Shown: positions 7,048 to 7,467 of the stretch, in pieces
Position numbering within the stretch: position 1 is the first letter of the stretch
Layout: each line of letters opens with the position of its first letter
Assembly: GCA_947259975.1 (NCBI GenBank)
Contig: CAMYOD010000003.1
Coordinates: forward strand, 120,517 to 184,516
Origin: an uncultured Gammaproteobacteria bacterium
Lineage (GTDB): Bacteria; Pseudomonadota; Gammaproteobacteria; HyVt-429
Direction of reading: 5' to 3'
DNA length: 64,000 nt
Position numbers and translations under genes: made by a program
The notes under the pieces: generated by a model
What the model saw: the letters and a program-made list of their open reading frames with translations, nothing else
The model's database searches: none
What the model was told of the DNA's origin: nothing

Positions 7048-7467
7048 TGGCGCGCCCGACAGGACTCGAACCTGTAACCTACGGCTTAGCTTACCACTAC
7101 AGCTTTCGCTGCCCCGTCCCGGGTTTGTGGTCTGGACTATATCTTCGCCGTCACAGGCGGGGCACGTATAGTCTCTACGGATCCCGGCAGCGGCCGCCGG
7201 CGATCAGCGTCACCGCGCTCGCTTCCAGGACGTCCTACCCCCGGTTCACGGCAAATATGCCGATCGCCGAAACCAGGCCTTCGAACGTTCCGGGGCCACC
7301 CATCGTGCGGCCGTCGGTTTCCTCGGTATTGCCATCGCCGCGACGCGTTAAGGGTCTACCGATACAGTGCCCTCCACTCCGCAAGTTCTGTTTCCTCGCG
7401 GAGGCTCCTATTTGCGACAGTGCCGCTTGCCAAAGGCCGTTGCTCTATCCGGTTGAGCTACGGGCGC
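7048..7467 (-). tRNA. tRNA-Arg(UCU), interrupted by a group I intron
   Basis: Exon 1 is 7433-7467 and exon 2 is 7048-7089, joined across the intron 7090-7432. The spliced tRNA has acceptor GCGCCCG/CGGGCGC, D-stem GCTC/GAGC, anticodon stem ACGGC/GCCGT with loop CTTCTAA, T-arm ACAGG/CCTGT and encoded CCA, closely matching E. coli argU. The anticodon is UCU, reading AGA/AGG. The intron falls inside the anticodon, between U34 and C35. A tRNA finder that does not model introns would miss this gene. Confidence 0.93.
7090..7432 (-). ncRNA. Self-splicing group I intron in tRNA-Arg(UCU)
   Basis: A 343-nt intron following a U and ending in G, as group I introns do. The conserved core is visible: R element GUAGAGACUAUACG (7165-7178) and S element GAAGAUAUAGUCC (7134-7146), whose GACUAUA and UAUAGUC form P7. 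P3 is GGGCAC with GUGCCC. P8 is CGCC/GGCG just before the S element. P2 is a 9-bp hairpin (CUCCGCGAG/CUUGCGGAG). The 5' region AGGAGCCU resembles the internal guide of cyanobacterial tRNA-Leu introns, with GAG pairing to exon CUU. There is no homing-endonuclease gene inside. Confidence 0.92.

Follow-up and report, generated by a model that had tools for sequence, protein, structure and literature searches.

Sequence comparisons confirm that the tRNA-Arg(UCU) gene in the window, by which we mean the whole stretch of 64,000 nucleotides that was analysed, is split inside its anticodon by a group I intron. The intron is real and lies in a tRNA gene that is probably needed; of more interest still is the broad family to which it belongs. 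As an overall explanation we propose, with high confidence, that it is a spliced group I intron and an endonuclease-less descendant of a homing family. With far less assurance, but on balance, we also favour the view that it is one of a family of tRNA-Arg(UCU)-anticodon introns found across bacteria and carried by phages, which would have spread by means of PF11645 endonucleases, colonised the site several times with different cores, and been overlooked because plain tRNA finders and the Rfam model RF00028 miss it, so that many genomes seem to be without a tRNA-Arg(UCU).

With introns allowed, ARAGORN finds a tRNA-Arg(tct) gene at c[7048,7467] in which nucleotide 35 of the gene, U34 of the tRNA, is followed by a 343-nt intron; run without introns, it did not call the interrupted tRNA-Arg gene in the window. 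The features of the gene are collected in Table 1. The tRNA-Arg(UCU) of a genome from the same family (G001) is uninterrupted, and the joined exons differ from it at one of 77 nucleotides. ARAGORN and this comparison agree with the original prediction that the two exons rebuild a perfect tRNA-Arg(UCU), and the placing of a 343-nt insert between U34 and C35 is exact to the base. The tRNA genes here lie on the minus strand in the order Pro (7601-7525), interrupted Arg(UCU), His, Lys, in a cluster between folD/htpG and clpX-clpP-tig (gene names read from translations). Two open frames at the intron, of 102 and 154 amino acids, were taken to be chance, since they run antisense to the intron and overlap tRNA sequence.

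Table 1. Features of the interrupted tRNA-Arg(UCU) gene (positions in the window), in the order of transcription.
Feature	Position	Strand	Evidence or remark
5' exon of tRNA-Arg(UCU), gene nt 1-35 through U34 (first anticodon base)	7433..7467	-	same stretch identical in the uninterrupted gene of G001
Group I intron, 343 nt, first base U, last base G	7090..7432	-	ARAGORN, R2 match, pair counts
Internal guide GGAG	7405..7408	-	GAG opposite C32-U33-U34 (U34.G at splice site); leading G opposite intron nt 1
P2 hairpin CUCCGCGAG...CUUGCGGAG, 9 bp	7377..7403	-	pair counts in relatives
P3 5' strand GGGCAC	7367..7372	-	pair counts in relatives
P4 (UCGGU/ACCGA), with P5 and P5a (CGC/GCG) between the P4 strands	7323..7362	-	assigned by reading
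P6 region, about 149 nt, GC-rich, variable; position of the endonuclease gene in longer relatives	7174..7322	-	
P7 5' strand GACUAUA, guanosine-binding helix	7167..7173	-	R2 and pair counts
P3 3' strand GUGCCC, forms the P3/P7 pseudoknot	7160..7165	-	pair counts
P8 hairpin CGCC...GGCG	7146..7159	-	double-sided changes in three of four pairs
P7 3' strand UAUAGUC	7135..7141	-	R2 and pair counts
P9 (ACCAC/GUGGU) around GAAA-capped hairpin GCAGC-GAAA-GCUGU	7093..7131	-	covariation
3' exon of tRNA-Arg(UCU), C35 U36 A37 A38 ... CCA	7048..7089	-	ARAGORN and comparison with G001

The helices that had been named from the letters alone (P7, P3, P8 and the 9-bp P2) were all found in the intron, as were the exon U before the insert and the G that ends it; that U lies opposite the guide G. 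P3 and P7 are interleaved, which is the pseudoknot of group I introns. All six pairs of P3 are kept in 85 of 86 distinct tRNA-Arg(UCU) introns (shuffled partners: mean 16, maximum 29), and five of the six positions vary among the 86, with up to six pair types each. For P2, at least six of seven positions are paired in 79 of 85 distinct relatives, the shuffled mean being 28. The two strands of P7 change together in distinct tRNA-Arg(UCU) introns (up to 86 relatives), and covariation in P7, P8 and P9a was seen in six introns. Among the core helices, P3, P7 and P8 are backed by compensatory changes and P4 by reading. The intron bears a resemblance, and no closer relationship is claimed, to subgroup IC3, the usual one for tRNA introns. 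RNAfold did not recover the group I core from the whole precursor, as is expected for an RNA that is pseudoknotted and has a long P6.

The original prediction had looked to Rfam's Intron_gpI model for support, which was not forthcoming: in a scan of the window at the gathering threshold and at E ≤ 5, RF00028 (Intron_gpI) gave no match to the intron, and a score of 50 bits was not reached. The same model also misses the tRNA-Arg(UCU) introns of genomes G035, G002 and G003 and of five further loci; in G035 it scores the tRNA-Leu(UAA) intron at 69.4 bits and the tRNA-Ile(CAU) intron at 57.2 bits, and it matches a phage tRNA-Arg(UCU) U34 intron at 62.6 bits. We attribute the miss to a weakness of RF00028, because sister Arg(UCU) introns are missed while Leu and Ile relatives score 50-69 bits. 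A further covariance model, R2, was built from 28 introns, most of them from tRNA-Leu(UAA), the rest from tRNA-Arg(CCU), tRNA-Ile and some other tRNAs, but none from tRNA-Arg(UCU). Arg(UCU) introns are, however, among the six seeds of an older model, R1, to which the R2 alignment had been fitted. In the 64-kb window R2 gave a single match, at 7185-7090 (80.7 bits, E 6.9e-19), which makes the insert kin to introns that the Rfam model does recognise. This match, together with the compensatory changes in P3, P7 and P8, upholds the assignment of the insert to group I.

The same-family genomes G002 and G003 have introns at the same site, 76-80% identical to that of the window where the sequences match. 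The G002 intron is identical to one in the public record Acidiferrobacteraceae bacterium HyVt-429, so that the window probably derives from a relative of the Acidiferrobacteraceae. Upstream of a tRNA-Pro in G002 (G002:C142 29791-29819; L061, about 2792-2820) we also noted a broken copy of the intron 3' end, joined to a degenerate 3' half exon, which looks as if it were the leftover of a partial duplication. Near a contig end at G000:C71 5417-5459 (L079), the 3' half of a tRNA with a CAU anticodon stands without its 5' half and is possibly the remnant of an integration site.

Across the class, R1 matches are spread over 50 of 369 genomes, 17 of which have a tRNA-Arg(UCU) broken after U34. Other tRNAs of the class carry group I introns too, since R1 matches lie in further tRNA genes (L103, L135, L127, L134, L136 and L108); those of L103 and L135 are tRNA-Ile(CAU) by reading, and the ARAGORN labels Ser, Thr and Tyr are uncertain. 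ARAGORN misplaces some intron edges, which gives the tRNA a wrong name; pairing of the anticodon stem sets the edge after U34, and the re-edged loci include at least one wrong join (L202). A pattern scan of species genomes returned at least 118 stretches, with the intron directly upstream in nearly all, and the same pattern was present in 61 viral contigs. Among the matches listed are Gammaproteobacteria (at least 56), Bacilli (at least 19), Bacteroidota (at least 16) and Omnitrophota (at least 12), along with Acidobacteriota, Chloroflexota, Alphaproteobacteria, Elusimicrobiota, Campylobacterota and Thermodesulfobacteriota. Besides the window, at least 100 other species from about nine phyla, as well as viral contigs, have an intron at the U34 site of tRNA-Arg(UCU). 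When the window gene was compared with annotated phages by BLAST, most matches were to tRNA exons, and a single uncultured phage of 484 kb matched part of the 3' half of the intron.

The core is mostly CUnUAUCGGU... in bacterial introns and AAAUUCGGG... in most phage introns; since the introns at the Arg U34 site are of at least two core types, this site has probably been colonised more than once. The Arg(UCU) introns of Enterovibrio nigricans (L178) and Aeromonas veronii (L247) have a different core with a long P8, unlike most cellular ones. In three viral contigs of 83-281 kb (L262, L274 and L301) an interrupted Arg(UCU) and an interrupted Leu(UAA) lie close together, with a third interrupted tRNA in L274 and L301. 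The gammaproteobacterial genome G035 likewise has three interrupted tRNAs (L063, L064 and L065): the intron follows U36 in Arg(UCU) and U34 in Leu(UAA), and in Ile(CAU) it lies beside the anticodon.

Nearly all tRNA-Arg(UCU) U34 introns have GGAG directly before P2, and the window intron, lying between U34 and C35 with this guide, falls within the definition of such introns used here. The insertion place had been predicted to be that of tRNA-Leu(UAA), and indeed the Leu(UAA) introns of other Gammaproteobacteria follow U34 and have the guide GAG. Arg(UCU) and Leu(UAA) U34 introns share this guide and differ in the adjoining pair: between intron nucleotide 1 and the base before GAG, the Arg U34 introns among the matches listed have U.G in 68 cases and C-G in 42, with 13 unpaired, whereas the Leu(UAA) introns have A-U in 18, G.U in six and C-G in one. 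Introns at other positions have other, fitting guides (by eye, GGG for tRNA-Arg(CCU) after U36 and GGA for the G035 tRNA-Arg(UCU) after U36), so the guide explains the insertion site.

Arg(UCU) introns of about 600-790 nt, from several phyla, encode a protein of about 137 amino acids at no fewer than 34 loci (L094, L161, L209 and 31 others). The three such proteins tested all match Pfam PF11645 (PDDEXK_5; E 6e-29 to 5e-40), and one intron-encoded protein matches PDB 2ost (E 2e-7), which we take to be I-Ssp6803I, the endonuclease of the Synechocystis tRNA-fMet intron. Pieces of a PF11645-type endonuclease are present in at least 17 other, shorter introns. In the viral contigs L299, L305 and L315 an HNH-type protein (by Pfam in L299, by likeness in the others) replaces PF11645 in the Arg(UCU) introns. 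We found no endonuclease gene or remnant in the introns of the window, G002 and G003, and the window intron appears to be a homing intron whose endonuclease was lost. As far as sequence can tell, its likely history is one of homing, endonuclease loss and retention, the last because the tRNA would be needed.

The window comes from a draft assembly (78 contigs, 92.8% complete) in which only one tRNA-Arg(UCU) was detected, so AGA decoding should need splicing, as had been argued for the case of a sole UCU-reading tRNA. No second copy was found among the 43 distinct tRNA genes of this assembly, whose missing 7% could hold one; intact arginine tRNAs are Arg(CCU), Arg(CCG) and Arg(ACG), and in eight genes of the window AGA accounts for one codon out of 3803. 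We infer that the intron splices out of the tRNA-Arg(UCU) precursor. That precursor would very likely be transcribed jointly with its neighbours, in the order Pro-Arg-His-Lys, and the intron would fold into a group I ribozyme in which the guide GAG pairs with C32-U33-U34 and U34.G marks the 5' splice site. A guanosine bound in P7 would attack at that site, and the freed U34 would then attack after the last intron G and join C35, giving mature tRNA-Arg(UCU). The intron itself would descend from mobile introns that reach the tRNA-Arg(UCU) anticodon by homing, by means of a PF11645 (I-Ssp6803I-type) endonuclease.

It is most improbable that the gene is instead dead and unspliced, with AGA served by another tRNA-Arg(UCU) or read in some other way. 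The incomplete assembly leaves room for a second gene and the loss might be tolerated with AGA so very rare, but the exons are perfect, one base off the intact G001 gene, and a dead gene would not keep the core helices, which are all intact and conserved in two genomes of the same family at 76-80% identity. Rather more weight, though still little, goes to the reading that this group I intron needs a host protein for splicing, the RNA being unable to do it by itself. Such a need is known for some group I introns, and the P6 region is large, GC-rich and open to many alternative folds; against this, the canonical core helices are all present, and the related bacterial tRNA-Leu and tRNA-Ile introns are known self-splicers. 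An assembly artefact or a chance resemblance, which a draft in 78 contigs might invite, is as good as refuted by independent assemblies, since independent genomes carry the same insertion, and it sits badly with an E-value of 7e-19.

As to where the intron came from, it seems unlikely that it reached tRNA-Arg(UCU) from tRNA-Leu(UAA), by way of the common C32-U33-U34, and not by homing from another tRNA-Arg(UCU). The site and the GAG guide are the same in both tRNAs, one phage array has both genes interrupted, and two or more core types are found at the Arg U34 site, all of which would suit such a move; the P1 pair beside the guide, however, differs (Y1-G in Arg, R1-U in Leu), and the closest neighbour of the window intron also belongs to an Arg tRNA. 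In a tree of intron 3' halves (114 aligned columns, 166 rows), in which resolution is weak overall, that neighbour is L180, a gammaproteobacterial Arg(UCU) intron with 92% identity. One-clade tests on the 114 columns gave p 0.67 for Leu introns and p 0.18 for Arg introns, both compatible with the data, and Arg and Leu introns within the same genome showed no clear excess of similarity, some 3' halves having been cut imperfectly.

Reviews of bacterial tRNA introns name those of tRNA-Leu, tRNA-fMet and tRNA-Ile and alpha- and beta-proteobacterial cases (PMC3984707, PMC4033280, PMC8450103), and within the open-access PMC literature we came across no survey devoted to the introns of tRNA-Arg(UCU). 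The novelty implied by the original prediction is not supported, given that the U34 site is so widely occupied and that interrupted tRNA-Arg-TCT genes are already in print: PMC4853749 describes one in Candidatus Thiomargarita nelsonii, with a putative group I intron, and another, by citation, in Beggiatoa BOGUAY. The description gives no structure, subgroup or site; the tRNA gene and the intron class are those of the window, and the interrupted Thiomargarita gene has 324 bases, the same as the G035 tRNA-Arg(UCU), whose intron follows U36 and not U34.

Among the better-known systems, the tRNA-Leu(UAA) introns of bacteria and plastids resemble the window intron in their position after U34, their guide GAG and a related P7-P9 half (R2 match), and differ in host tRNA, in P1 beside the splice site and in a P3-P6 half of another type. 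Proteobacterial tRNA-Arg(CCU) and tRNA-Ile(CAU) introns are likewise group I introns of the anticodon loop with a homologous 3' half, but in the genomes compared the former follows U36 with the guide GGG and the latter lies beside the CAU anticodon, the guides being different. The Synechocystis tRNA-fMet intron with I-Ssp6803I also belongs to group I, interrupts the anticodon loop of its tRNA and has a PD-(D/E)XK endonuclease; the PF11645 proteins of the window's sister introns match 2ost. The host tRNA is a different one, however, and the window copy is without an endonuclease.

A tRNA that the cell should need would depend on an RNA enzyme within its own gene. The family offers a comparison set for the choice of tRNA target (guide triplet and endonuclease site), for jumps among tRNAs with C32-U33-U34 and for endonuclease loss, and it explains an annotation gap, that of genomes seemingly without a tRNA-Arg(UCU). 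Cultured hosts exist (among them Exiguobacterium, Thiohalophilus and Lysinibacillus), which makes splicing in this family directly testable.
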